Shown here: positions 26,117 to 50,453 of the stretch, piece after piece
Layout of the letters: the number at the start of each line of letters is the position of its first letter
Numbering within the stretch: position 1 is the first letter of the stretch
Assembly: GCF_004135385.1 (NCBI RefSeq)
Contig: NZ_CP035493.1
Span: 1,922,001 to 1,986,000 of the forward strand
Length of the DNA stretch: 64,000 bases
Source: Xylanimonas protaetiae
GTDB taxonomy: Bacteria; Actinomycetota; Actinomycetes; Actinomycetales; Cellulomonadaceae
Direction of reading: 5' to 3'
The notes under the pieces: generated by a model
Database searches by the model: none
Seen by the model: the letters and a program-made list of their open reading frames with translations, nothing else
Told to the model about the DNA's origin: nothing
Translations under genes and position numbers: made by a program

Positions 26117-26899
26117 TCACGCCGGCTGCGGGGTCGCCCACAGCCGGGTGCCGCCCGCGACCTCGCCGACCCAGTCGGGCGCCAGCGTGACGACGTCGCC
26201 GACGACGACGACCGCCGGGTTGCGCACTCCCGCCTCGGCCGCGACCTGCGCGACCGTGCCCAGCGTGGCGATCGTGGTGCGCTGCCGCGGCCCGTAGCCG
26301 TCCTCGACGATCGCGACGGGCGTGTCCTCGGAGCGGCCGCCTGCGACGAGCGCCCACGCCGTGTGGGACAGGCCGGCGATCGCCATGAGCAGCACGACGG
26401 TGTGCTCCGGGCCGCCCGGTACCCCGCCCAGCAGGCCGGAGACGTCGTCGTGCCCGGAGATGACGGTGAACGCGCGCGCGACGCCGCGGTGCGTCAGCGG
26501 GATGCCCGCCGCGGCCGGCACGGAGACGGCGCTCGTGACGCCCGGGACCACCTCGACGGGGATGCCCGCCGCGACGCACGCCGCGACCTCCTCGCCGCCG
26601 CGGCCCAGCACGTACGGGTCGCCGCCCTTGAGCCGCACGACCTTGCGCCCGGCGAGCGCCTGCTCGACGAGGATCTCGTTGATCTCGGCCTGGCGGACCG
26701 GGTGGTGACCGGGCTGCTTGCCGACGTCGATCACGGGCGTCTGCCCGGACAGGACGCGGGGCAGGGTGTCGAGCAGGGCGCGCGGCCCGAGGCGGTCGAC
26801 GACGATGACGTCGGCGTCCTCGAGCAGGCGCAGGCCCTTGACCGTGATGAGGTCGGGGTCACCCGGGCCGCCGCCGACGAGCCACACCTTGCCTGTCAT
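26117..26899 (-). CDS. cobA: Uroporphyrinogen-III C-methyltransferase
   Basis: SAM-dependent enzyme making precorrin-2 from uroporphyrinogen III, the branch point to siroheme, the cofactor of the sulfite reductase encoded in this locus. The 260-residue protein has the single-domain SUMT motifs: VWLVGGGPGDPDLITVKG, DADVIVVDRL, GRKVVRLKGGDPYVLGRGGEE, EVVPGVTSAVSVPAAAGIPLTHR and VGDVV. GGGGAGG precedes the ATG. It is the last gene of the sulfur locus, 133 bases after the transporter permease. No precorrin-2 dehydrogenase or ferrochelatase domain is fused or adjacent, so these must be encoded elsewhere. Confidence 0.94.
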   Translation of the reverse strand: MTGKVWLVGGGPGDPDLITVKGLRLLEDADVIVVDRLGPRALLDTLPRVLSGQTPVIDVGKQPGHHPVRQAEINEILVEQALAGRKVVRLKGGDPYVLGRGGEEVAACVAAGIPVEVVPGVTSAVSVPAAAGIPLTHRGVARAFTVISGHDDVSGLLGGVPGGPEHTVVLLMAIAGLSHTAWALVAGGRSEDTPVAIVEDGYGPRQRTTIATLGTVAQVAAEAGVRNPAVVVVGDVVTLAPDWVGEVAGGTRLWATPQPA

Positions 26900-27032
26900 C
26901 GAGACCTCCCCGGTCCGGTGGTTGCGGGCGTCGTCCCAGCATCGGCCGGGCACGTTTCGGCGATGTGACGCGCACGGGTCGGTCGGGTCACGACCCGTCC
27001 GCTCGCGAGGTGCCGGGTCGCGAGGCGTCCGG

Positions 27033-27953
27033 TCACGAGGCGTCCGGGCGCAGGCCGCGGCGGCGCAGCACGGCGCGCTCGACCGGTGCGAACACGAGCA
27101 GCTCGACGGCGATGCCGACGGCGAGGATGAGCAGGATCGCGGTGAAGACGAGCGCCATGTCGGCGAGCTGGCGGCCCTGGTCGAGGAACTGCCCCAGGCC
27201 GAAGCCGATGGAGCCGCCGACGGCGATGATCTCGGCCGCCATGAGGGAGCGCCACGAGAACGCCCAGCCCTGCTTGAGCCCGGCCAGGTAGCCGGGCAGC
27301 GCGGCGGGCAGCACGATCTCGGTGACCATGCTCCACCGGTTCGCGCCCAGCACGCGGCCCACGGAGCGCAGCAGCGGCGGCACCTGGTCGACGCCCGCGA
27401 CGATGCCGTTGATGATCGACGGCACCGCGCCCATGAGCACGACGAAGTAGACGGTGCCGTTGGAGAGGCCGAACCAGATGATGGCGGCGGGCACCCAGGC
27501 GACCGACGGGAGCACCTGGAGGCCCGTGATGATCGGGCCGAACGCGACGCGCACCCACCGCACGCGGGCCACCACGATGCCGAGCGGCGTGCCGATGGCG
27601 ACGGCCGCGAGGAACCCGAGCACGCCGCGCGACAGCGACGTACCGAGGGCCTCCCACAGCGTGCCGTCCTGGGCCGCGCGGCTGATCGCCGTACCGACCT
27701 CGCGGGGGCCGGGCAGGTTCCAGATGGGCTGGACACCGGACCAGACCACGACCTGCCAGACGACGAGGACGACGGCGACGGCGAGCAGCGGGGGCCAGGC
27801 GCGCCGCAGCGCCCCGGAGAGCGCGGCAGCAGCCCCGCTCCGGCCGCGGTCGGGCGTCTGGAGCGCATCGAGGCCGGCCTCCACGTCGGCGATCTTGTCC
27901 TTGTCCTCCGTCGAGAGCCCGGAGGTGAACCAGGTGGGGACGTCAGTGGGCAT
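27033..27953 (-). CDS. SsuC/TauC-type ABC transporter permease
   Basis: Inner-membrane permease of 306 residues with a hydrophilic first 45 residues (WFTSGLSTEDKDKIADVEAG, unusual for the family) and then about six helices. The EAA-type loop is seen in LPAALPGYLAGLKQGWAFSWRSLMAAEIIAV. Family members move sulfonates, taurine, nitrate or related small anions. Its ATG lies inside the end of the ATPase gene (11-base overlap). The gene completes an SsuABC-like set placed between cysN and cobA. Because no sulfonate monooxygenase is present, sulfate or another sulfur anion is a reasonable substrate, but this is inference. Confidence 0.87.
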   Translation of the reverse strand: MPTDVPTWFTSGLSTEDKDKIADVEAGLDALQTPDRGRSGAAAALSGALRRAWPPLLAVAVVLVVWQVVVWSGVQPIWNLPGPREVGTAISRAAQDGTLWEALGTSLSRGVLGFLAAVAIGTPLGIVVARVRWVRVAFGPIITGLQVLPSVAWVPAAIIWFGLSNGTVYFVVLMGAVPSIINGIVAGVDQVPPLLRSVGRVLGANRWSMVTEIVLPAALPGYLAGLKQGWAFSWRSLMAAEIIAVGGSIGFGLGQFLDQGRQLADMALVFTAILLILAVGIAVELLVFAPVERAVLRRRGLRPDAS

Positions 27954-28689
27954 GGCGGCTGATCTCCTCGCGCAGGCGGGCGGTGATCTCGCCCGTGAGC
28001 CGGACGGGGTCCTGGTCTCCGACGTTCCACTCGTGCACCACGCGGCCCGGGCGCGAGGAGAGCAGCAGCACGCGCTGGCCGAGGCGCACGGCCTCGCGCA
28101 CGTTGTGGGTGACGAACACGACGGTGCGCTGCGTGGTGCGCCAGATGCGCTCGAGCTCGTCGTGCAGCAGGTCGCGCGTGATGGCGTCGAGCGCGGCGAA
28201 TGGCTCGTCCATGAGCAGGACGTCGCGGTCCTGGGCGAGCGCCCGGGCCAGGGCGACGCGCTGGCGCATGCCGCCGGACAGCTCGTGGGCGCGCTTGTCG
28301 GCGGCGCCGTCGAGCCGCACGAGGTGCAGCAGCTCGGCGGCGCGCTCGGTGCGCTCCGCACGCGGCACGCCGCGCAGCTTGAGCGCCAGCTCGACGTTCT
28401 TCGCGGCGGTGAGCCACGGCAGCAGCGCGGGCTCCTGGAACATCAGGGCCGCGGGACCGGCCACCACGTCCCCCGCCGTCGCCGGCTCGAGCCCGGCGAG
28501 GATGCTCAGGAGCGTCGACTTGCCGCACCCGGACGCGCCGATGAGGCACACGAGCTCGCCCGGGGCGATCGACAGGTCGACGCCGTCGAGCACGGGCGGG
28601 CCGCCGGCGAACCGCTTGCCGACGCCGGTGAGGCGCACGGCGACGTCGTCCGTCAGGGAGCCCGTGTCGACGAGGGACGTGGTGGTCAT
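27943..28689 (-). CDS. SsuB/TauB-type ABC transporter ATP-binding protein
   Basis: ATPase of 248 residues for the adjacent permease and binding protein. Motifs: Walker A GASGCGKST near residue 50, Q-loop LMFQEPALLPWLTAAKNVELAL, signature LSGGMRQR, Walker B VLLMDEPFAALDAITR and switch His VFVTHNVREAVRL. The LPWLTAAKNVELAL and DEPFAALDAITR wording is typical of the sulfonate/taurine/nitrate group. Start ATG is three bases after the binding-protein stop. Confidence 0.92.
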   Translation of the reverse strand: MTTTSLVDTGSLTDDVAVRLTGVGKRFAGGPPVLDGVDLSIAPGELVCLIGASGCGKSTLLSILAGLEPATAGDVVAGPAALMFQEPALLPWLTAAKNVELALKLRGVPRAERTERAAELLHLVRLDGAADKRAHELSGGMRQRVALARALAQDRDVLLMDEPFAALDAITRDLLHDELERIWRTTQRTVVFVTHNVREAVRLGQRVLLLSSRPGRVVHEWNVGDQDPVRLTGEITARLREEISRHAH

Positions 28690-28692
28690 GTG

Positions 28693-29790
28693 CTACTCCT
28701 CGCCCAGCCCGGAGGCCGAGACCTTCTCCTGGCCGTCCGCGGCCAGGACCTTGTTGAGCAGGCGCAGGTCGTAGATGCCATGGAGGTCGGCGTCCTGCGT
28801 GGTGCCGGCCTTCACTCCGTGGTCGAGCTGCGTCTGGAGCGTGCTGGCGATCGGGTCGGCCGTGAACTCGATGTTCTGGAACGCCGAGTCCAGGATGTCC
28901 TGCGACAGCGGCTTGCCCGCTGCCTTGGCGATCTCGTCGTTGACGAGCTTCGCGCTGCCCGCCGGGTCGTCCTGGAGGGCCTTGATCGCCGCGACCTCGC
29001 CGCGCAGCACGGCCTCGACGGTCTCGGGGTGGTCGGTCAGGAAGTCGGACCGCACGATGACGTTCGTCGTGACGAACCGGCCGTCCGGCCACAGGTCCTT
29101 CTCGTCGACCAGCACGTGCGCGCCCGCCTCGAGCACCAGGCGCGAGGCCCACGGCTCGGGCAGCCAGCCGCCGTCGAGCTCGCCGTTCTGGAACAGCTGG
29201 AGCGTCTGGGCGTTCTCCGTGGGCGTCACCGCGACGTCGCCGCCGCCCTGCAGGTCGCTCGTGTAGCCCTGGTCGGCGAGCCAGACGCGCAGCGCGACGT
29301 CCTGCGTGCCGCCGAGCTGCGGCGAGGCGATCTTCGTGCCCTGCAGGTCCTCCGGCGTGTCGATGCCGTCGCGCACGACGAGCGACGCGCCGCCGGAGGC
29401 AGCGCCGGCGACGATCTTCAGGCCCTTGCCCTGCGACTTCACGAAGCCGTTGATCGCGGGGCTCGGCCCGATGAACGCGATGTCGATCGCGCCGGCGTTG
29501 AGCGCCTCGAGCTCGGCGGGGCCCGCGTTGAAGACCTCCGTCTTCAGCGCCGTGGAGCCCAGCTCCTTGGCGAAGTACCCGCCGGCCGCGCCCACGAGGG
29601 CGGGCGCGTGCGTGACGTTCGCGAAGTAGCCGACGTGCACCTCGGTCGCGGCGCCCTCGTCCTTCGACGCCCCGCCCGTCGCGGACGACGGCCCGGCGCA
29701 CGCCGCCATGCCCAGGACCAGCCCCATGCCCAGAGCTGTGCACGCGGCCCTCCCGACCAGGGCGGCGGGGATGCGGGTCTTCGTCGTCAT
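28693..29790 (-). CDS. SsuA/NrtA-like substrate-binding lipoprotein
   Basis: Extracytoplasmic solute-binding protein of 365 residues, anchored by a lipobox (LGMAAC, Cys near residue 31) after a basic N-terminus and hydrophobic stretch. The mature part shows the NMT1/SsuA pattern: HVGYFANVTHAPALVGAAGGYFAKELG, LNAGAIDIAFIGPSPAINGF, LQGTKIASPQLGGTQDVALRVWL and LDGGWLPEPWASRLV. AAGGAG lies eight bases before the ATG. Gene order with the ATPase and permease, and placement directly after cysN, make it the likely importer of sulfate or an organosulfur compound for this pathway. Confidence 0.9.
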   Translation of the reverse strand: MTTKTRIPAALVGRAACTALGMGLVLGMAACAGPSSATGGASKDEGAATEVHVGYFANVTHAPALVGAAGGYFAKELGSTALKTEVFNAGPAELEALNAGAIDIAFIGPSPAINGFVKSQGKGLKIVAGAASGGASLVVRDGIDTPEDLQGTKIASPQLGGTQDVALRVWLADQGYTSDLQGGGDVAVTPTENAQTLQLFQNGELDGGWLPEPWASRLVLEAGAHVLVDEKDLWPDGRFVTTNVIVRSDFLTDHPETVEAVLRGEVAAIKALQDDPAGSAKLVNDEIAKAAGKPLSQDILDSAFQNIEFTADPIASTLQTQLDHGVKAGTTQDADLHGIYDLRLLNKVLAADGQEKVSASGLGEE

Positions 29791-29843
29791 CGTGGTTCTC
29801 CTTCGGGGGATGGGTCCGGTCGCCATGGTCGGCGCCGGGGGAC

Positions 29844-31151
29844 TCAGGCTCCGTCGACCATGCCGGCGGCGAGGGTGGCGCCGTCGTCGGGGTCGATGAG
29901 CAGGAACGCGCCGGTGCGGCGCGCCCTCGCGTAGGGCTCGACGGGCACGGGCGCCGCGAGGCGCAGCGTGACCCGGCCGAGGTCGTTGAGGGTCAGCGAC
30001 TCGGCCGCGAGCAGCTCGGCGGCGTCGAGCGTGTCGAGGTCGAGGCGGCCCGCGATCTCGCGGACCTGCGCCTTGACGGTGCGGGTGCCGTGCTTGAGCA
30101 GCACGGTCGTGCGCGGGTGCAGCGGCCTGTCGCCGAGCCAGGCGAGCGTCGCGACGACGTCCTGCGTCGGGACGGGCGCGTCGGCGGCGGCCGCGAGGAG
30201 GTCGCCGCGCGCGACGTCGATGTCGTCCGCGAGGCGGATCGTCACCGACTGCGGCGCGAACGCCTCGGGCAGCGTGTCGAGGCCTGCGGCGAGCGAGTCG
30301 GCGGTGTCGATGCCGGCGACCGTCGTGCGGCGGCCCCCGGGCAGGACCACGACCTCGTCGCCGGGGCGCACGACGCCCGCGGCGACCTGGCCGGCGTAGC
30401 CGCGGTAGTCGCGGAAGCGGTCCTCGCCGGACTGCGGGCGCACGACGTGCTGCACGGCCAGGCGGAAGGGCGCGGCGTCGTCGGACGTGTCGCTGCTCGG
30501 CAGCTGTTCGAGCAGCTCGAGCAGGCTCGGGCCGCCGTACCAGGGCGTGTTGTCCGAGCGGTCGACGACGTTGTCGCCCAGCAGCGCCGAGACGGGGACG
30601 GCGTGCACGTGGGCGACCCCGAGGGTCGTGGCGGCGGTGCGCAGGTCGGCGGCGATCGAGTCGAACCGGTCCTGCGACCAGTCGACGAGGTCCACCTTGT
30701 TGACGGCGACGACCACGTGCGGCACGCGCAGCAGCGCGGCCACGGCCAGGTGGCGGCGCGTCTGCTCGAGCAGGCCCTTGCGCGCGTCCACGAGCAGCAC
30801 GACGACGTCGGCCGTCGAGGCGCCCGTGACCGTGTTGCGCGTGTACTGCACGTGGCCGGGGCAGTCGGCGAGCACGAACGAGCGGTTCGCCGTGGCGAAG
30901 TAGCGGTACGCGACGTCGATTGTGATGCCCTGCTCGCGCTCGGCGCGCAGGCCGTCGGTGAGCAGAGCGAGGTCGGTGCCCTCGTGACCGCGGTCCCGTG
31001 AGACGCGCTCGACGGCGTCGAGCTGGTCGCTCAGCACGGACTTCGAGTCGAAGAGCAGGCGGCCCACGAGCGTGGACTTGCCGTCGTCGACCGACCCGGC
31101 GGTGGCGATGCGCAGCAGGGTCGTGGTGGTGTCCAGGGTGGCGGTGGCCAT
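29844..31151 (-). CDS. cysN: Sulfate adenylyltransferase, GTPase subunit
   Basis: Elongation-factor-like GTPase that drives ATP sulfurylase (CysD) to form APS from sulfate and ATP. The 435-residue protein has the G-domain motifs GSVDDGKSTLVGRLLFD near residue 18, EREQGITIDVAYR, DCPGHVQYTRN and NKVDLVDW, followed by two beta-barrel domains (ending LIDPDDGATLAAGMV). There is no C-terminal APS kinase (CysC) domain, in line with direct APS reduction. ATG shares a base with the cysD stop (TGATG), so the two subunits are co-translated. Confidence 0.96.
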   Translation of the reverse strand: MATATLDTTTTLLRIATAGSVDDGKSTLVGRLLFDSKSVLSDQLDAVERVSRDRGHEGTDLALLTDGLRAEREQGITIDVAYRYFATANRSFVLADCPGHVQYTRNTVTGASTADVVVLLVDARKGLLEQTRRHLAVAALLRVPHVVVAVNKVDLVDWSQDRFDSIAADLRTAATTLGVAHVHAVPVSALLGDNVVDRSDNTPWYGGPSLLELLEQLPSSDTSDDAAPFRLAVQHVVRPQSGEDRFRDYRGYAGQVAAGVVRPGDEVVVLPGGRRTTVAGIDTADSLAAGLDTLPEAFAPQSVTIRLADDIDVARGDLLAAAADAPVPTQDVVATLAWLGDRPLHPRTTVLLKHGTRTVKAQVREIAGRLDLDTLDAAELLAAESLTLNDLGRVTLRLAAPVPVEPYARARRTGAFLLIDPDDGATLAAGMVDGA

Positions 31152-32083
31152 CAGAAGTACCCCTCCTTCTTGCGGTCCTCCATGGCGGCTTCCGACATGC
31201 GGTCGTCGGCGCGCGTGGCTCCGCGCTCGGTGATGCGGGTGGCGGCGATCTCGGCGACGACGTCGTCGACCGTCAGGGCGATCGACTCGACGGCGCCGGT
31301 GCAGGACATGTCGCCGACGGTGCGGTAGCGGACCTTCTCGGAGCGGACCGACGCGCGCTCGGCGGCGGTGCGCGGCTGCGCGTACGGCCCGACGGCCAGC
31401 AGCATGCCGTCGCGGTCGAAGACGTCGCGCTCGTGCGTGTAGTACAGGCTGGGCAGCTCGATGTTCTCGCGGGCGATGTACCGCCAGACGTCGAGCTCGG
31501 TCCAGTTGGACAGCGGGAACACGCGCACGTGCTCGCCTGGGCGGTGCCGGCCGTTGTACAGGTTCCACAGCTCGGGGCGCTGGTTGCGCGGGTCCCACTG
31601 CCCGAACTCGTCGCGCAGCGAGAAGATGCGCTCCTTCGCGCGGGCCTTCTCCTCGTCACGACGGCCTCCGCCGAACACGGCGGTGTACTTGCCGGCCTCG
31701 ATGGCGTCGAGCAGCGGCCGGGTCTGCAGCGGGTTGCGGGTGCCGTCGGCGCGCTCGCGCAGGCGGCCGTCGTCGATGTAGTCCTGCACCTTCGCGACCT
31801 CGAGGCGCAGGCGCAGGCGGTCCGCGGTGCGGTCGCGGAACGCGAGCACCTCGGGGAAGTTGTGGCCCGTGTCGACGTGCAGCAGCGGGAACGGCACCGG
31901 TGCCGGGGCGAACGCCTTGACCGCCAGGTGGAGCATGACGATCGAGTCCTTGCCGCCGCTGAACAGGAGCACGGGGCGCTCGAGCTCCGCGACGACCTCG
32001 CGGATGACGTGGATCGCCTCGCTCTCGAGGGCGTCGAGGAGGGAGAGGCTGGTGGTGGCGGTCGCTCGCGTTGCGGGGAACAT
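31151..32083 (-). CDS. cysD: Sulfate adenylyltransferase, catalytic subunit
   Basis: PP-loop ATP pyrophosphatase subunit of ATP sulfurylase, 310 residues. The PP-loop LLFSGGKDSIVMLHLAVKAF is at about residue 40, followed by HVDTGHNFPEVLAFRD, the Arg-rich FGGGRRDEEKARAKERIFS, and WNLYNGRHRPGEHVRVFPLSNWTELDVWRYI. It ends in RKKEGYF as most CysD proteins do. I use ATG 32083 with GGAAGG just upstream; a GTG at 32110 overlapping the cysH stop (GTGA) would add nine residues and is a fair alternative. Confidence 0.95.
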   Translation of the reverse strand: MFPATRATATTSLSLLDALESEAIHVIREVVAELERPVLLFSGGKDSIVMLHLAVKAFAPAPVPFPLLHVDTGHNFPEVLAFRDRTADRLRLRLEVAKVQDYIDDGRLRERADGTRNPLQTRPLLDAIEAGKYTAVFGGGRRDEEKARAKERIFSLRDEFGQWDPRNQRPELWNLYNGRHRPGEHVRVFPLSNWTELDVWRYIARENIELPSLYYTHERDVFDRDGMLLAVGPYAQPRTAAERASVRSEKVRYRTVGDMSCTGAVESIALTVDDVVAEIAATRITERGATRADDRMSEAAMEDRKKEGYF

Positions 32084-32106
32084 CGTGCCTTCCAGGGTTG
32101 ACGCGG

Positions 32107-33057
32107 TCACGTGTGCAGCCCGCACTCGGTCTTGTCGAAGCCGGACCAGCGGCCCGCACGGGGGTCCTCGCCCGGGGCGACGCGGCGGGTGCAGGGGCCG
32201 CAGCCGATCGACGGGTAGCCGTCGTCGAGCAGCGGGTTGAGCAGCACGCCGTTCCGGGCTGCGTAGCCGTACAGGTCGTCGCTCGACCAGGCGGCGAGCG
32301 GGTTGACCTTGATGAGGCCGTTCTTCTCGTCGAACGTGACCAGCGGGGTGCTCGCGCGGGTCGGCGCCTCGTCGCGGCGCACGCCCGTGAACCACACCTC
32401 GTACCCGGCGAGGGTCCGGGTGAGCGGCTCGACCTTGCGCATCGCGCAGCAGGCCGCGGGGTCGCGGGCCCACAGGTCCTTGCCGTGCTCGGCGTCCTGC
32501 TCCGCCACGGTGAGGCGAGGGAGCACGTCGACGACGGTGACGTCCATGGTCGCTGCGACGGCGTCGCGCGTGCCCACGGTCTCGGAGAAGTGGTAGCCGG
32601 TGTCGAGGAACAGGACGTCGACGAACGGCAGCGCCTGCGCGACGACGTGGGGGAGGACGGCGTCCGCCATCGAGCAGGCGACGGCGGCCAGGTCGCCGCC
32701 GAGCTCGCGGACGACCCAGGCGACGACCTGCTCGGCCGTGGCCTCGTCCGCCGCCCCGATGCCGGAGCCGCCGAGCTCCGTCGCGCCGCGCACGGCGATC
32801 GCACGCAGCTCGGCCTCGGACCGCTTGACGCGCGCGCGGGCGGCACGTCCCTCGGCGTGGGCAGCGCGAGCCGCCTCGCGCGCGAGGAACCGCTCACGCG
32901 GGCCGAGGGCGCCGGTCGTGCCCGTCGCGGCGAGCAGCGAGGACGCGGAGTCGCCCACCTCCGCCGTCACCGTGCCTGGTGCCGGTGACGGCTGCGGCTC
33001 CGCTGCGGGCGGATGCTCGTTCCTCGCCTCCACCCTCCGCTGCACCTCCGCCGTCAC
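32107..33057 (-). CDS. cysH: Adenylylsulfate (APS) reductase with a repeat-derived N-terminal insert
   Basis: Thioredoxin-dependent reduction of APS to sulfite and AMP. The 316-residue protein shows the [4Fe-4S]-type Cys pairs, CCAMRKVEPL near residue 203 and GCGPCTRR near residue 286, plus the catalytic C-terminal KTECGLH. These mark APS rather than PAPS reductase and fit the absence of CysC. The N-terminus is unusual: a 16-base direct repeat (32957-32972 and 33044-33059) brackets an 87-base, 29-codon, in-frame stretch that matches an intergenic repeat at 22019. GTG 33057 overlaps the sulfite reductase stop (GTGA); the inner repeat copy holds another GTG at 32970, perhaps the ancestral start. 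Confidence 0.94.
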   Translation of the reverse strand: MTAEVQRRVEARNEHPPAAEPQPSPAPGTVTAEVGDSASSLLAATGTTGALGPRERFLAREAARAAHAEGRAARARVKRSEAELRAIAVRGATELGGSGIGAADEATAEQVVAWVVRELGGDLAAVACSMADAVLPHVVAQALPFVDVLFLDTGYHFSETVGTRDAVAATMDVTVVDVLPRLTVAEQDAEHGKDLWARDPAACCAMRKVEPLTRTLAGYEVWFTGVRRDEAPTRASTPLVTFDEKNGLIKVNPLAAWSSDDLYGYAARNGVLLNPLLDDGYPSIGCGPCTRRVAPGEDPRAGRWSGFDKTECGLHT

Positions 33058-33059
33058 CG
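32957..33059. repeat. 16-bp direct repeats around an 87-bp in-frame insert in cysH
   Basis: ACCTCCGCCGTCACCG occurs at 32957-32972 and again at 33044-33059, exactly 87 bases (29 codons) apart. Between them, 33015-33043 matches the dispersed repeat at 22019-22047, beginning GCTCGTTCCTCG and ending CTCCGCTGC. The layout looks like insertion of a small repeat with duplication of the target at the sir-cysH junction. Confidence 0.8.
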
Positions 33060-34772
33060 GAGCGCCTCCTCGTCCGCGCGGTGCGCCCACCGGGCGAACG
33101 TCTCGCCCGGCTCGCGGTCGGCCGCGAAGCGGCGGACCACCTTCTCGACGTAGTCGGCCAGGCCGTCCGCCGTGACCTTGAGGCCGCGCACCGTGCGGCC
33201 CAGGCCGGGCTCCTCGCGGTCCGCCGACGTCAGGCCCCCGCCCAGGTGCACCTGGAAGCCGGGCACCTGCTCGCCGTCGTCGGACAGGACGAGCTGGCCC
33301 TTGAAGCCGATGTCCGCCGTCTGGATGCGGGCGCACGAGTTGGGGCAGCCGTTGACGTTGATCTCGAGCTTCGTGTCGAGCGACGCGAGGACGTCGCCCG
33401 CACGCTCCTCGAGCGTGGCGATCGCGGCGGCCGCGGTGTCCTTCGTGTCGACGATCGCGAGCTTGCAGAACTCGATGCCCGTGCAAGCGATCGTGGAGCG
33501 GCGCACGAGGCTCGGGCGGGCGGTGAGGCCGAGCGGCTCGAGGCCCGCGACGAGCTCGTCCACGCGGTCGGCCGGCACGCCGAGGACGACGACCTTCTGG
33601 TGCACCGTGAGGCGGGCCGACTCGGCGCCGACCTGCTCGATGAGGTCGGCGAGCCCCGTCAGCGTGTTGCCGCCCACGCGCCCGACGACGGGCGCCGCGC
33701 CCACGTAGAAGCGGCCGTCCTTCTGCTCGTGCACGCCCACGTGGTCGCTCGGGCGGGTCGGCGCGGCCGGCGCGGGGCCGTCGGGGAGGGCGTAGCCGAG
33801 GTACTCGTCCTGGAGCACCTGGCGGAACCTCTCGGTGCCCCAGTCGGCCAGGAGGAACTTCAGGCGGGCCTTGTTGCGCAGCCGTCGGTAGCCGTAGTCG
33901 CGGAAGATGCGGATGACGCCGTGCCAGACGTCGGCGGCCTGCTCCTGCGTGACGAACACGCCGAGGCGCTCGCCGAGACGCGGCGTCGTCGACAGGGCGC
34001 CACCCACCCACAGGTCGTAGCCGGGGCCGAGGTCGGGGTGGACCACGCCCACGAGCGAGATGTCGTTGATCTCGTGCACGACGTCGAGGCTCGGGTGGCC
34101 CGTGATGGCCGTCTTGAACTTGCGCGGCAGGTTGGCCAGCTCCGGGTCGCCGATGTAGCGGCGCTTGATCTCCAGGATCGCGGGCGTCGGGTCGATGATC
34201 TCGTCCGCGGCGATGCCGGCCACGGGCGAGCCGAGGAACCCGCGCGGGGAGTCGCCGCACGCCGTCGTCGTCTCGAGGCCCACGGTGTCCAGGCGACGCC
34301 AGATCTCCGGGACGTCCTCGACGGAGATCCAGTGGTACTGGATGTTCTGCCGGTCCGTGATGTCCGCGGTGCCGCGGGCGAAGTCGGTCGAGATGCCACC
34401 CAGCACGCGCAGCGCCGCGGGGCTCAGCGCCTGGCCGTCGGAGCGGACGCGGAGCATGAAGTAGCGGTCCTCGAGCTCGTGCGGCTCGAGCGTGGCGGTG
34501 CGGCCGCCGTCGATCCCCGGCTTGCGCTGCGTGTACAGGCCCCACCAGCGGAACCGGCCGTGCAGGTCGTCGTCCGGGATGGAGTCGAAGCCGTGCTTCG
34601 CGTAGACGTCCTCGATGCGCTCGCGGACGCCGAGGGGCGCCGACTCCTGCTTGAAGACCTCGTTGGCGTTGAGCGGCTCGGTGCCGTCGACCTTCCACTG
34701 GCCGTTGGGCCGGCCCGCGCGCGGCGGGCGGACGGCAGCCCGTGCGGGGGGCGGGCTCGCGGTGGTGGACAT
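33054..34772 (-). CDS. sir: Ferredoxin-dependent sulfite reductase (siroheme, 4Fe-4S)
   Basis: Six-electron reduction of sulfite to sulfide. The 572-residue protein has the duplicated nitrite/sulfite reductase layout: a ferredoxin-like half-domain with RFRWWGLYTQRKPG, ITDRQNIQYHWI and then two siroheme/4Fe-4S segments. Cluster-binding Cys are in IACTGIEFCKLAI and NGCPNSCAR. This combination and length match the NirA/SirA-type ferredoxin enzymes of actinobacteria. AGAGGGGAC lies a few bases before the ATG. The gene is separated from the YeiH-type gene by 83 bases with a hairpin and is coupled to cysH by a GTGA overlap. Nitrite reductase activity is the alternative, but the cys neighbours favour sulfite. 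Confidence 0.93.
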   Translation of the reverse strand: MSTTASPPPARAAVRPPRAGRPNGQWKVDGTEPLNANEVFKQESAPLGVRERIEDVYAKHGFDSIPDDDLHGRFRWWGLYTQRKPGIDGGRTATLEPHELEDRYFMLRVRSDGQALSPAALRVLGGISTDFARGTADITDRQNIQYHWISVEDVPEIWRRLDTVGLETTTACGDSPRGFLGSPVAGIAADEIIDPTPAILEIKRRYIGDPELANLPRKFKTAITGHPSLDVVHEINDISLVGVVHPDLGPGYDLWVGGALSTTPRLGERLGVFVTQEQAADVWHGVIRIFRDYGYRRLRNKARLKFLLADWGTERFRQVLQDEYLGYALPDGPAPAAPTRPSDHVGVHEQKDGRFYVGAAPVVGRVGGNTLTGLADLIEQVGAESARLTVHQKVVVLGVPADRVDELVAGLEPLGLTARPSLVRRSTIACTGIEFCKLAIVDTKDTAAAAIATLEERAGDVLASLDTKLEINVNGCPNSCARIQTADIGFKGQLVLSDDGEQVPGFQVHLGGGLTSADREEPGLGRTVRGLKVTADGLADYVEKVVRRFAADREPGETFARWAHRADEEALR

Positions 34773-34823
34773 GCAGGTCCCCTCTCGGGTGGCGGGTGGA
34801 GCGGTGTCGTGGCGTCCCGGGCC

Positions 34824-34845
34824 GGGCCCCTGCGCGGAGGGGCCC
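34824..34845 (-). terminator. Hairpin between the YeiH-type gene and sulfite reductase
   Basis: Perfect 7-bp stem GGGCCCC/GGGGCCC with an 8-base loop lies 11 bases past the transporter stop. It may end part of the transcripts or protect the 3' end of the transporter message, allowing unequal expression within the locus. Confidence 0.55.
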
Positions 34846-34855
34846 GCCCCTGGGG

Positions 34856-36007
34856 TCACAACGTCACGTGGGCGAAGAGCAGGCTCGCGAGGGCGAGTCC
34901 TGCGACGAGGTTGAACACCGCCGCCGAGCCGAAGACGACGAGCGGGCGCCAGCCCGCCTCGCGCACGCCGGACAGCCGGAACTCGAGGCCGATCGACACG
35001 AACGCGATGATGAAGAAGACCGTGCTGAGCGCCTTGATGACCGCCAGGTCGGGCGCCGCGGCGTCCGCCCCGACGTTGCCGACGTACACGGTCGCGATGG
35101 CGGAGGCGAGGATGAAGCCGAGGACAAACTTCGGGAACCGCGTCCACAGCTCCGACGCCTTGGGGGCCGCGGCGCCCTCCGTGCGCTCCACCTTGAAGGC
35201 GAAGTACGCGGTGAGCAGGAACGCGACGACGCCGATGAGCACGTTCTGCGAGGCCTTGACGATCGCGGCGATCTTCAGCACGTCGTCCCCCGCGATCGCG
35301 GCGGAGGCCGTCACCGCCGCCGTGGTGTCGATGTTCCCGCCGATCCAGGCGCCGGCCACGGCCGGGGTCAGGTTCAGCACGTCGGCGAGCCACGGCAGCA
35401 CGAAGATCGACGGCAGGGCGAACAGGATCACGAGGCTCGCGGCGTAGGCGAGCTGCTCGCGCTTGGCCTGCACGGCGCCTGCCGCGGAGATCGCCGCGCT
35501 CACGCCGCAGATGGACACGGCCGACGAGAGCAGCGCGCGCAGCTTGGCGTCGACGCCGAGGCGCCCACCCAGCCACCACGTGAAGCCGAACACGAGCGTG
35601 ATGAGCAGGACGGCCTGGAGGATGCCGGGGCCGCCCGCCTTGGTGATGGTGGCGAAGTTGATCGTGGCGCCGAGCAGCACCAGCCCGAGCTTGATGAACA
35701 GCTCGGTGCGGAACGCGGCCGCGAGGCGGTCCCGGACGCCCGCGAGCGAGAGCACCAGGTTGCCGAGCAGGCCCAGCGCGATGGCGTAGACGGGGTACTC
35801 GATCGCCCCGGCGACGCCCTCCAGGGCGGTGCCCTCGAACCAGACCGGGACGTCGGCGGAGAGCTCGCGGGCTGCCCAGGCGAGGGCGAGCAGGACCACG
35901 AGGCCGACGACGGTGTAGAGCGGGCCGAGCCGGGAGCCGGTCTGGACGACCGAGTCCTCGAGCGAGGCGGGACGGGGCGCGTTCTTCGCGGTGGCGGACG
36001 TGCTCAT
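34856..36007 (-). CDS. YeiH/UPF0324-type putative sulfate transporter
   Basis: Integral membrane protein of 383 residues with about ten helices. Family hallmarks: IEYPVYAIALGLLGNLV, the amphipathic FIKLGLVLLGATINF, LSSAVSICGVSAAISAAGAV and WIGGNIDTTAAVTASAAIAGDDVLKIAAIVKASQN. YeiH relatives are annotated as sulfate exporters from sequence, but the direction and substrate are little tested; placement as the first large gene of a sulfate-assimilation locus favours a role in sulfur-anion movement. The 61-residue gene just upstream overlaps by one base (TGATG) and seems to supply the missing first helix. Confidence 0.87.
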   Translation of the reverse strand: MSTSATAKNAPRPASLEDSVVQTGSRLGPLYTVVGLVVLLALAWAARELSADVPVWFEGTALEGVAGAIEYPVYAIALGLLGNLVLSLAGVRDRLAAAFRTELFIKLGLVLLGATINFATITKAGGPGILQAVLLITLVFGFTWWLGGRLGVDAKLRALLSSAVSICGVSAAISAAGAVQAKREQLAYAASLVILFALPSIFVLPWLADVLNLTPAVAGAWIGGNIDTTAAVTASAAIAGDDVLKIAAIVKASQNVLIGVVAFLLTAYFAFKVERTEGAAAPKASELWTRFPKFVLGFILASAIATVYVGNVGADAAAPDLAVIKALSTVFFIIAFVSIGLEFRLSGVREAGWRPLVVFGSAAVFNLVAGLALASLLFAHVTL

Positions 36008-36192
36008 CAGGCCACCAGCCCCTCGGGCAGCAGGGACAGGAGGCCGAGCGCGACGAGCGCGAGGCCGACGACCGTCGCGGCCCAGTCCTCGTTGAGGTGG
36101 ATGCGGCGGGCGGTGGCGACGGTGGCCTCGGGGGTGGCGGGCTGCGCGGCGACGTCGGGTGCGACGTCCTCGGGCCGAGCGGGTGCAGACAT
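36007..36192 (-). CDS. Small one-helix membrane protein coupled to the YeiH-type gene
   Basis: A 61-residue protein: a Pro/Ala-rich hydrophilic half and one membrane helix at residues 40-58 (WAATVVGLALVALGLLSLLP). GGAAGAGG precedes the ATG by about ten bases, a good ribosome site. Its stop and the ATG of the YeiH-type gene share one base. The pattern HLNEDWAATVVGLALVALGLL is very like the N-terminal helix of one-piece YeiH transporters (EDW...GL), so I read it as a split-off first helix. It is the first protein-coding gene after the Cys leader ORF. Confidence 0.75.
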   Translation of the reverse strand: MSAPARPEDVAPDVAAQPATPEATVATARRIHLNEDWAATVVGLALVALGLLSLLPEGLVA

Positions 36193-36236
36193 GTCGGTGG
36201 TACCTCTTCCGGGCGATGGGGCTCGATCAGCGGGGC

Positions 36237-36291
36237 GGGCGGCGGCCGCTCCGCTCCCCAGGACCGGGGTGCGCGCAGGCAGGCGCCGCCC
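36237..36291 (-). promoter_or_regulatory. Attenuator-like alternative stems downstream of the Cys leader ORF
   Basis: On the minus strand GGGCGGCG (36291-36284, starting at the last base of the leader stop) can pair with CGCCGCCC at 36244-36237, giving a long-range hairpin that encloses CCCC-N6-GGGG. The same GGGCGGCG can instead pair with CGCCGCCC inside the leader ORF (36320-36313). The two pairings exclude each other, so ribosome position on the leader could choose between them. Confidence 0.55.
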
Positions 36292-36338
36292 TAGAGACAC
36301 ATCTCCGGGGTGGGGCGGCGGAAGCACATGCGTGGCAT
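36291..36338 (-). CDS. Leaderless Cys-containing leader peptide of the sulfur locus
   Basis: A 15-codon ORF, MPRMCFRRPTPEMCL, with Cys at codons 5 and 14, just before the stop. It has no ribosome site but starts seven bases after CAATCT, which has TTGCCT 17 bases further upstream, so transcript and ORF probably begin together. Cys-bearing leaderless ORFs upstream of sulfur genes act as cysteine-responsive attenuators in mycobacteria. The position ahead of the sulfur operon and the alternative stems beside it fit that role. A cis-acting peptide is expected, not a stable product. Confidence 0.7.
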   Translation of the reverse strand: MPRMCFRRPTPEMCL

Positions 36339-36345
36339 GGGACAA

Positions 36346-36374
36346 AGATTGCGGTCTGATCTATGGATAGGCAA
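36346..36374 (-). promoter_or_regulatory. Promoter of the sulfur-assimilation locus
   Basis: On the minus strand TTGCCT (36374-36369) and CAATCT (36351-36346) are separated by 17 bases, with seven bases to the leader ATG. This is the only AT-rich patch in the region. CATGC-GTG-GCATG at 36327-36339, overlapping the presumed transcription start, could also be an operator. Confidence 0.6.
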
Positions 36375-36481
36375 GACGGTCGCTATGAATGTTCGAATGC
36401 TGGACACCCGTCCCGTTCACCGGTCACCGTCGCGGACCGCCGTCTCGCCTCGGGACGACGGTGCCCCGGTACCCTGCGACG

Positions 36482-36850
36482 GTGGACTTCCTCTACAACG
36501 TCTTCGTCGTCCTGCACTTCGTCGGCTGGGCCATCGTGCTCGGCGGCTACCTCGCGTCCCTGCGCACGCCCGGCCTGTACCGGGGCGTGTTCCACGGCGC
36601 GGCGACGGCCGTCGTCGCCGGCGTCGTGATGATGGGCCTCATCGAGTCCGGCACGGCCGGGCCCGAGGGGATCGACCGGACCAAGCTGGGCGTCAAGCTC
36701 GGCGTGGCGCTCGTCATCGCCGTGCTCGCGTTCCTCGCCCGCCGGCAGGGCCGCAAGGCCGACAACGGCACCGGCGCGGTGACCCCCGGCCTCAAGCACG
36801 CCATCGGCGCGCTCGTGCTGGTCAACATCGTCGTCGCCGTCTTCTGGTGA
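36482..36850 (+). CDS. Small four-helix membrane protein of unknown function
   Basis: A 122-residue hydrophobic protein with helices near residues 2-22 (FLYNVFVVLHFVGWAIVLGGYL), 35-52, 68-85 and 100-120. The HFxGWAxxxGG-like start and FHGAATAVVAGVVMMGL are seen in small actinobacterial integral membrane proteins, but I cannot assign a function. The GTG start is six bases after TACCCT, consistent with a leaderless transcript. It is divergent from the sulfur locus and 36 bases ahead of the DUF456-type gene. Confidence 0.72.
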   Translation: MDFLYNVFVVLHFVGWAIVLGGYLASLRTPGLYRGVFHGAATAVVAGVVMMGLIESGTAGPEGIDRTKLGVKLGVALVIAVLAFLARRQGRKADNGTGAVTPGLKHAIGALVLVNIVVAVFW

Positions 36851-50306: not shown

Positions 50307-50311
50307 TCCGA

Positions 50312-50403
50312 GCGGCCGTGACTGGCGAAGGTGGGGCACCACCGGGGAGCGGCCTCGACACCACGTGTCGCTCGCCTTCGTGCGCCGCCCGCCTGGGCGC
50401 CGG
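50312..50403 (+). ncRNA. ZTP (pfl) riboswitch
   Basis: The leader has the pfl consensus in order: CGTGACTGGCGAAGG, a small hairpin GGTGG-GGCA-CCACC, the conserved CCGGGGAGCGG, a variable linker, and the pseudoknot half GCCGCCCGCCTGGGCGC. ZTP riboswitches sense the folate-stress alarmone ZTP/ZMP (AICAR phosphates) and raise expression of purine and one-carbon genes. ZMP is the substrate of PurH, encoded 50 bases downstream. Recognition is from the conserved blocks; no covariance search was run. Confidence 0.88.
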
Positions 50404-50453
50404 GGTCCTTCGAAGTGCTCACGCCCGAACGACCGCCGACCACAGGAGCCCCT

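Follow-up and report, generated by a model that had tools for sequence, protein, structure and literature searches.

A short cysteine-codon leader ORF with a conserved RNA strand pair before a sulfur-assimilation locus of Xylanimonas protaetiae, and its recurrence before a symporter gene in the genus

The 64,000-nucleotide stretch of the Xylanimonas protaetiae genome analysed here (the window; its genome, G000, is 3.86 Mb in one contig) contains, on the minus strand upstream of a run of sulfur-assimilation genes, a 15-codon ORF with two cysteine codons whose stop codon overlaps the first of two complementary RNA strands. This leader is present in all five sir-bearing genomes of the genus (in one of them in degenerate form), and a new finding is that the same element, there with a terminator hairpin, precedes an SLC1-type symporter gene in four genus mates. 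We read the sir leader as a ribosome-position attenuator that would answer to cysteine through a leaderless mini-ORF and a switch made by RNA strands 2 and 3, and we give this reading a probability of about 0.5. The elements of the leader are:

36383-36386, minus strand: first ATAG repeat, putative regulator site
36369-36374, minus strand: -35-like hexamer TTGCCT, read directly from the sequence
36361-36364, minus strand: second ATAG repeat of the same ATAG-N18-ATAG pair, putative regulator site
36346-36351, minus strand: -10-like hexamer CAATCT, ending 7 nt before the ATG
36291-36338, minus strand: leader ORF MPRMCFRRPTPEMCL, 15 codons plus TAG (36293-36291), with its ATG at 36338
36324-36326, minus strand: Cys5 codon UGC
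36313-36320, minus strand: strand 1, CGCCGCCC, within the ORF, a weak competitor
36297-36299, minus strand: Cys14 codon UGU
36294-36305, minus strand: mini-hairpin GAGA-UGUG-UCUC, surrounding the Cys14 codon
36279-36291, minus strand: strand 2, GGGCGGCGCCTGC, beginning in the stop codon
36256-36269, minus strand: hairpin CCCCGGTCCTGGGG between strands 2 and 3, read directly
36237-36249, minus strand: strand 3, GCGGCCGCCGCCC, 29 nt beyond strand 2

The succession of TTGCCT, a 17-nucleotide spacer, CAATCT and 7 further nucleotides leading into an ORF with cysteine at codons 5 and 14 is present just as the sequence-only reading had described it, with the reservation that the hexamers are weak: their matches to the sigma-70 consensus, 4/6 for TTGCCT and 2/6 for CAATCT, are poor, and a standard promoter scan gave no promoter in window positions 34700-36600. 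When both strands of the window were scanned for a short ORF with at least two Cys codons and a TTG/-10-like pair 6-8 nt before its start, MPRMCFRRPTPEMCL was the sole match (its -10-like element was placed at AATCTT, shifted one base downstream from CAATCT, for a spacer of 18 nt). Because the hexamers fit the consensus poorly, it is conservation that suggests a leaderless start of the transcript. The leader has no match at the gathering score in Rfam 15, whose sole match in the window is a ZMP/ZTP riboswitch elsewhere (50308-50405, plus strand, 46.4 bits). An NCBIfam search with two of the longer genus leader peptides and two from the family gave no match (peptides shorter than 20 aa are not searchable).

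Eleven genomes of the genus were compared, G000 included, and five of these have sir at E 1e-80 or better (G000, G002, G003, G006 and G010). All five have the short Cys-containing ORF, with peptides MPRMCFRRPTPEMCL (G000), MPRMCTCRPAMEMCLQGGARMHL (G002), MPRTCMRHCAPEMCLPGDVRVHL (G003), VPRMCPRPCRPETCL (G006) and MSRTRPRSTRATCP (G010). In four genomes it is followed by a 61-aa ORF and yeiH; in G006 the next gene is sir itself. In each of the five, 7 nt separate the start codon from a CA..[CT]T hexamer (CAATCT, CAATCT, CACGCT, CACTCT and CACCTT), and from the start codon to the first gene the five leaders have a mean column identity of 76%. Four of them contain 2-3 Cys codons, an early one among them, and share the upstream block ATAG-N8-TTGC-N6-ATAG, with CTTGC at the -35-like position; the G010 leader has one Cys codon, has no counterpart of Cys5 and has lost the block. 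In G010 yeiH is retained, and sir is more diverged (71% identity). A weak DNA match in G004 is not accompanied by a corresponding leader.

A sequence model built from the five sir leaders (R1) has, beside these five, three further hits in genus mates, which score 26 to 32 bits (E 2.8e-7 to 2.7e-5) and all lie upstream of an SLC1-type symporter gene. With a cut-off of E 1e-40, this gene is present in four genus mates, not including G000, and in a distant form in one other of 219 family genomes; the fourth symporter genome of the genus, G005, also proved to have the leader, so that four of four symporter genes carry it. The four copies are:

L277, from about 970, G010:C1:1545967, plus strand: symporter leader
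L278, from about 1108, G003:C11:2090, plus strand: symporter leader
L279, G001:C1:986522, minus strand: symporter leader
L284, G005:C166:3459, minus strand: symporter leader

Their peptides (MPRIATHSRTLGTCP, MPRTANHAAHGTCP, MPRTPTFAVAPGTCP and MLNRVTAHPMCTSGGVRMPDSP) have a single Cys codon each, the late UGU. All four leaders have a terminator-like hairpin whose arms pair at 9/9 positions (9 bp), with one variable position that is G-U, G-C, G-C and A-U in the four, followed by the T-rich tails TTTCGTGT, TTCTGATG, TTCTCGTG and TTTTGTTT; the most terminator-like of them is that of G005. The 5' arm of this hairpin overlaps the 13-nt strand 3, and the full 2:3 helix and the terminator are therefore mutually exclusive. 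The symporter protein matches no NCBIfam model at 0.01 and has weak matches to SLC1 structures (best E 1.1e-7). A second model made from all nine leaders (R2) scores these at 62 to 113 bits, as expected for its training set. Beyond the nine, nothing rises above noise, inside or outside the genus: the next R1 match is at 21 bits in the 219 family genomes, 396 order genomes give nothing above 21.9 bits except G000 itself, and the next R2 matches are at 26.3 bits in the 11 genus genomes and 29.6 bits in the 219 of the family. The weak R2 matches L306, L307, L299 and L293 were inspected and have no such leader.

The nine leaders, five before sir (G000, G002, G003, G006, G010) and four before the symporter gene (G010, G003, G001, G005), share a fixed frame. 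In all nine an in-frame UGU has its first base exactly 8 nt upstream of strand 2, at a distance from the start codon that is a multiple of 3, despite the varied length of the ORF before it, and strand 3 has the core CG[TC]CGCCC. The stop codon lies two codons past the UGU in six leaders and later in three, six of the nine end in Cys-Pro-stop or Cys-Leu-stop, and none has adjacent Cys codons. That the strand at the stop can pair with a strand downstream, as had been claimed, is true of eight leaders at 10-12 of 13 positions: among the sir leaders G000, G002 and G003 form 12 pairs and G010 10, each symporter leader forms 11, and the helix is broken in G006, with 6. Overall 96 of 117 cells are paired in register, versus 36-73 when one strand is slid by 1 to 3, and the pairing is thus register-specific; in MAFFT alignment A3 the 2:3 helix and the mini-hairpin together have 90.7% of cells paired, versus 43-64% when slid. 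The mini-hairpin alone pairs in 86.1% of cells over the nine leaders, and one of its pairs changes on both sides, from A-U to G-C, in three of them.

The sequence-only reading had also looked to covariance of the strands across relatives for support, and this is not what the nine leaders give. Permuting strand 3 among them does as well in 3617 of 20000 cases (36 of 120 for the five sir leaders alone, 6 of 24 for the four symporter leaders alone), and 86 of 500 column shuffles are no worse paired, so that there is no excess of covariation in helix 2:3. When the five sir leaders are folded to a consensus, the covariation term is unfavourable (+3.28). The fixed frame bears on whether the conserved block is simply a regulator-controlled promoter, with the ORF and the pairings incidental. 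The ATAG-N18-ATAG pair and CTTGC are prominent upstream of four of the five sir leaders, as that explanation would have it; against it, the reading frame and the register of the UGU are kept in nine of nine, and the element recurs before the symporter gene, where no ATAG block is seen. We consider it improbable.

The either/or pairing proposed from G000 alone stands in part. The 8-mer GGGCGGCG (36291-36284) does have perfect complements on either side, at 36320-36313 within the ORF and at 36244-36237 within strand 3, and the pairing with the downstream complement is the conserved one; strand 1 is a weak competitor. With the codons of the G000 ORF shuffled in order, the mean probability of the 2:3 helix, P(2:3), is 0.79 versus 0.72 for the real sequence, and summed over the nine leaders 21 of 300 such shuffles are as low as observed. 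GGGCGGCG is the only 8-mer of the 149-nt leader with perfect complements on both sides, and triples of this kind appear in 0.3% of 3000 dinucleotide shuffles and in 1.2% of 3000 random 149-mers of the window; the arrangement is rare, though not singular, in DNA of this sort. The view that GC-rich DNA offers such complementarity by chance, with no regulation at all, would be served by the latter figure, since 1.2% per 149 nt amounts to about 300 triples over 3.86 Mb, and by the ordinary fold energy of the leader, which is no more stable than its shuffles (z 0.26). This view leaves the recurrence at two loci with the spacing preserved to accident, and we regard it as highly improbable.

Downstream of the G000 leader the genes are arranged as follows:

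36203-36210, minus strand: Shine-Dalgarno-like site GGAAGAGG of the first gene
36006-36191, minus strand: 61-aa ORF, first gene after the leader, with no family match; the DNA of G002, G003 and G010 aligns to it
34856-36007, minus strand: YeiH-like permease (PF03601), below the TIGR00698 cut-off
33054-34772, minus strand: sulfite reductase (sir), with its start at 34772
26117-33053, minus strand: cysH, cysD, cysN, SsuA-type and companion ABC genes, and uroporphyrinogen-III methyltransferase (SUMT), in one same-strand run

The sulfur-assimilation content claimed for this locus is borne out by cysD, cysN, cysH, sir and SUMT; its transport genes had been taken for sulfate transport, and they are a YeiH-like permease and an SsuA-type set (the two companion ABC genes are SsuB/C-like by reading of their translations), not a sulfate permease. 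Because these genes form a same-strand run, they are probably a single operon. The Shine-Dalgarno-like site of the first gene is GGAAGAGG in G000, G002 and G003, CGAAGAGG in G010 and GGAAGGGG in G006. The G000 sulfur leader has no intrinsic terminator in window positions 34700-36600, and no terminator-like 3' arm of the kind found in the symporter copies is seen in the sulfur leaders.

In the attenuator that we favour, the mini-ORF would be translated from the first base of the transcript, and the long 2:3 helix would form unless a ribosome covers strand 2. With cysteinyl-tRNA in short supply the ribosome would stall at Cys5 and leave strand 2 free, 2:3 would form and the operon would be on; a ribosome that has moved on to Cys14 or to the stop codon would cover strand 2, strand 3 would stay free and expression would fall. 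In the symporter copies a free strand 3 would make the intrinsic terminator. Because the sulfur operon has none, shut-off there would probably run through a hidden Shine-Dalgarno site or Rho. We infer the cysteine stall, the sign of the response and this output step, and cysteine is suggested as the regulated amino acid by the content of the operon.

Ribosome-position folding calculations were made on RNA cut after strand 3, as it would be once the polymerase has just transcribed that strand. A ribosome placed at codon 9 gives P(2:3) of 0.83-1.00 in eight of the nine leaders and of 0 in G006. At codon 5, the proposed stall, P(2:3) is 0.98 (G000), 0.99 (G002), 0.49 (G003), 0.00 (G006) and 0.03 (G010) in the sir leaders and 0.10 (G010), 0.99 (G003), 0.96 (G001) and 0.20 (G005) in the symporter leaders, thus at least 0.96 in only four of nine. 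Without a ribosome the cut G000 RNA gives 0.72 (0.92 for the free RNA in an estimate under other masks). With the UGU in the A site P(2:3) is 0.00 to 0.11 over the leaders, and 0.00 in G000 at the UGU or the stop, values that are no test of the switch because the helix cannot form once strand 2 is masked. At equilibrium the full-length RNA prefers 2:3 in the G000 and G010 sir leaders alone, whatever the position of an upstream ribosome, and in the symporter leaders the terminator wins whatever the ribosome does (0.72 to 1.00), so that antitermination there would have to be kinetic. Kinetic control is usual for attenuators.

The same calculations bear on translational control of the mycobacterial type, in which a ribosome on the leader would block a structure that hides the Shine-Dalgarno site and strands 1-3 would play a minor part; its output step overlaps with that of our own reading. 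It accords with the lack of an intrinsic terminator in the sulfur leader and with the consensus structure computed from the five sir leaders, in which the Shine-Dalgarno-like site pairs with a stretch 3' of strand 3 through a helix; at one of its positions two sequences have U-A, one has C-G and two have C-A. The Shine-Dalgarno region of G002 and G003 folds onto CCUCU and CCGG, which lie around the leader stop, and this site opens when a ribosome is at the stop, from 0.13 to 0.33 in G002 and from 0.14 to 0.41 in G003. The other leaders do not follow: openness does not change with a ribosome in G006 and G010, and in G000 it is 0.39 free and 0.41 with a ribosome at codon 5 and falls to 0.18 at the UGU and 0.21 at the stop, a pattern of opening that is absent in the other four. 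The symporter copies, moreover, retain strands 2 and 3 and yet use a terminator, and on balance we think control of this type rather unlikely. We note that with an alternative mask the site is almost unchanged in the five species (at most 0.14 to 0.17, in G003), and opening of the Shine-Dalgarno site by a stalled ribosome was rejected as a general rule, the five species disagreeing in direction or showing no effect.

The ribosome's position might also be sensed with a signal other than cysteine, such as another amino acid, slow initiation or slow termination. The symporter leaders and the G010 sir leader, with the late UGU as their only Cys codon, would sit well with this, and do not fit a simple rule of stalling upstream of the strands; signal or sign differs there. 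The late UGU could, in addition, be kept by the mini-hairpin, and the Cys-Pro-stop or Cys-Leu-stop endings point the same way. On the other side, the G005 copy has a different mini-hairpin and yet keeps the UGU in frame and register, and the early Cys in four of the five sulfur leaders, the task of the operon downstream and the cysteine ORFs at the equivalent place across the family (below) speak for cysteine as the signal of our favoured attenuator, so that we judge a different signal unlikely. A related and quite speculative idea, to which we attach little weight, is that one RNA module gives opposite answers to one signal at the two loci, its polarity set by the position of the Cys codons. 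If so, Cys5 upstream of the competing strands would let starvation switch the sulfur operon on, and a sole late Cys, which puts the ribosome over strand 2, would let it switch the symporter off.

A cysteine leader before sir appears to be a habit of the family. The gene was found in 160 of 220 family genomes, and 1200 nt upstream of it were read in 88 of the 160 (G010 excluded; 58 of these regions were chosen for spread over genera, not at random). A short ORF with at least three Cys in its last 12 codons is present in 70/88 regions versus 3/88 in a reverse-strand control, and outside the genus in 69/84; within the genus G006 is a match, and G000, G002 and G003 count as misses because their leader precedes yeiH. 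Under a promoter criterion the figures are 69/90 versus 0/90, G010 and the window's own leader, entered as an additional row, being among the 90. Among the distances from a [TC]A...T hexamer to the in-frame starts of the family Cys ORFs, 7 nt is the peak (48 of 223 starts, versus 17 at 6 nt and 12 at 4 nt). Since such Cys-dense ORFs are common before sir, a cysteine leader is to be expected here; the peptides of the other genera (MTTAAHRLLVTTRHEMPACVRRSMRSCLCCCR and similar) are unlike those of the genus, whose own leader is a different and Cys-poorer one that probably replaced the Cys-dense kind. The leaders of sister genera resemble the genus leader in lying before sir with a -10-like hexamer mostly 7 nt from the start, and differ from it in being mostly 24-41 codons long, in their ends CCCR, CRCC and CCCC, and in their RNA strands GCUGA/CUCAGC. 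A leader candidate was also found in 21 of 80 further loci (control 6/80), for which the position at sir was not confirmed in every case, and the low number is therefore no evidence on genera outside the family. These family leaders were missed by the sequence-only reading, as were the Cys14 mini-hairpin, the fixed step from the UGU to strand 2 and the second locus with its terminator. In the other genera we also see potentially competing stretches GCTGA (at the stop), CTCAGC, CTGAGC and GCTGAG, and GGTCCTCGG could compete against the Shine-Dalgarno region.

Ribosome-mediated transcription attenuators of the trp, ilv and leu type combine a leader peptide with competing helices. The genus leader is like them in its predicted leader peptide, in its putative competing helices, in its two codons (G000) for the presumed regulated amino acid, and in the terminator hairpin of the symporter copies; it is unlike them in its weak protector strand 1, its putative leaderless start and the lack of an intrinsic terminator at the sulfur operon. 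In mycobacteria, leaderless short ORFs with polycysteine tracts were shown by Canestrari 2020 (doi 10.1111/mmi.14498), according to PMC9031893 and PMC9094748, to attenuate in response to cysteine; by those descriptions the genus leader is similar in being a predicted leaderless short Cys ORF before sulfur or cysteine genes (in G000 it does lie upstream of sulfur genes). It differs from them in having two separated Cys codons (1-3 in relatives) and no contiguous Cys run, in a conserved strand pair in fixed register with a Cys codon, and in the terminator hairpin at the sister locus. Work published in 2005 (PMC1262725) predicted Cys leader peptides for cys operons in Mycobacterium and Propionibacterium acnes and for cbs in Bifidobacterium longum; as set out there, these peptides share with the G000 leader a candidate Cys peptide before cys genes and no terminator at the cys operon (no conserved terminator hairpins in Mycobacterium), and differ from it in that their Cys codons form runs close to the stop. 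For Streptomyces lividans, PMC8079986 describes leaderless attenuator peptides, among them one that has a single Trp codon. A Cys run is the defining mark of the polycysteine kind; as the genus leader has none, we file it as a variant that would work like those leaders and not as a member of that kind; in the text accessible to a literature search no publication on it was found.

These comparisons suggest that a single genus can exchange the cysteine leader of its sulfur operon, a Cys-dense peptide giving way to a Cys-poorer one around a fixed RNA frame, and that this frame occurs also before a second, unrelated gene. The natural series of leaders, with Cys codons early and late or late only and with or without a terminator, could separate the role of codon position from that of the output step. 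Searches keyed on Cys runs would miss leaders of this build.

G000 contains a second predicted cysteine leader of a different build. In six of six genus genomes examined a short ORF with late Cys codons precedes cysK, behind a GGAGGGA-like site; in G000 it is VRIAVAPPASAASTPMCCRPCR, upstream of the match at 2370656-2371549 (minus strand) of G000:C1. Its start codon is GTG in four genomes, ATG in G003 and TTG in G006, and a stretch [AG]... GAGCG(T/C)CCG 3' of the ORF is pairable with CGGGCGCTC in most of them. GATAGACC also lies upstream of cysK in G000 and G006, and ATAG-N18-ATAG flanks the -35 in four genus genomes; the ATAG repeats are a candidate site of a regulator shared with cysK.
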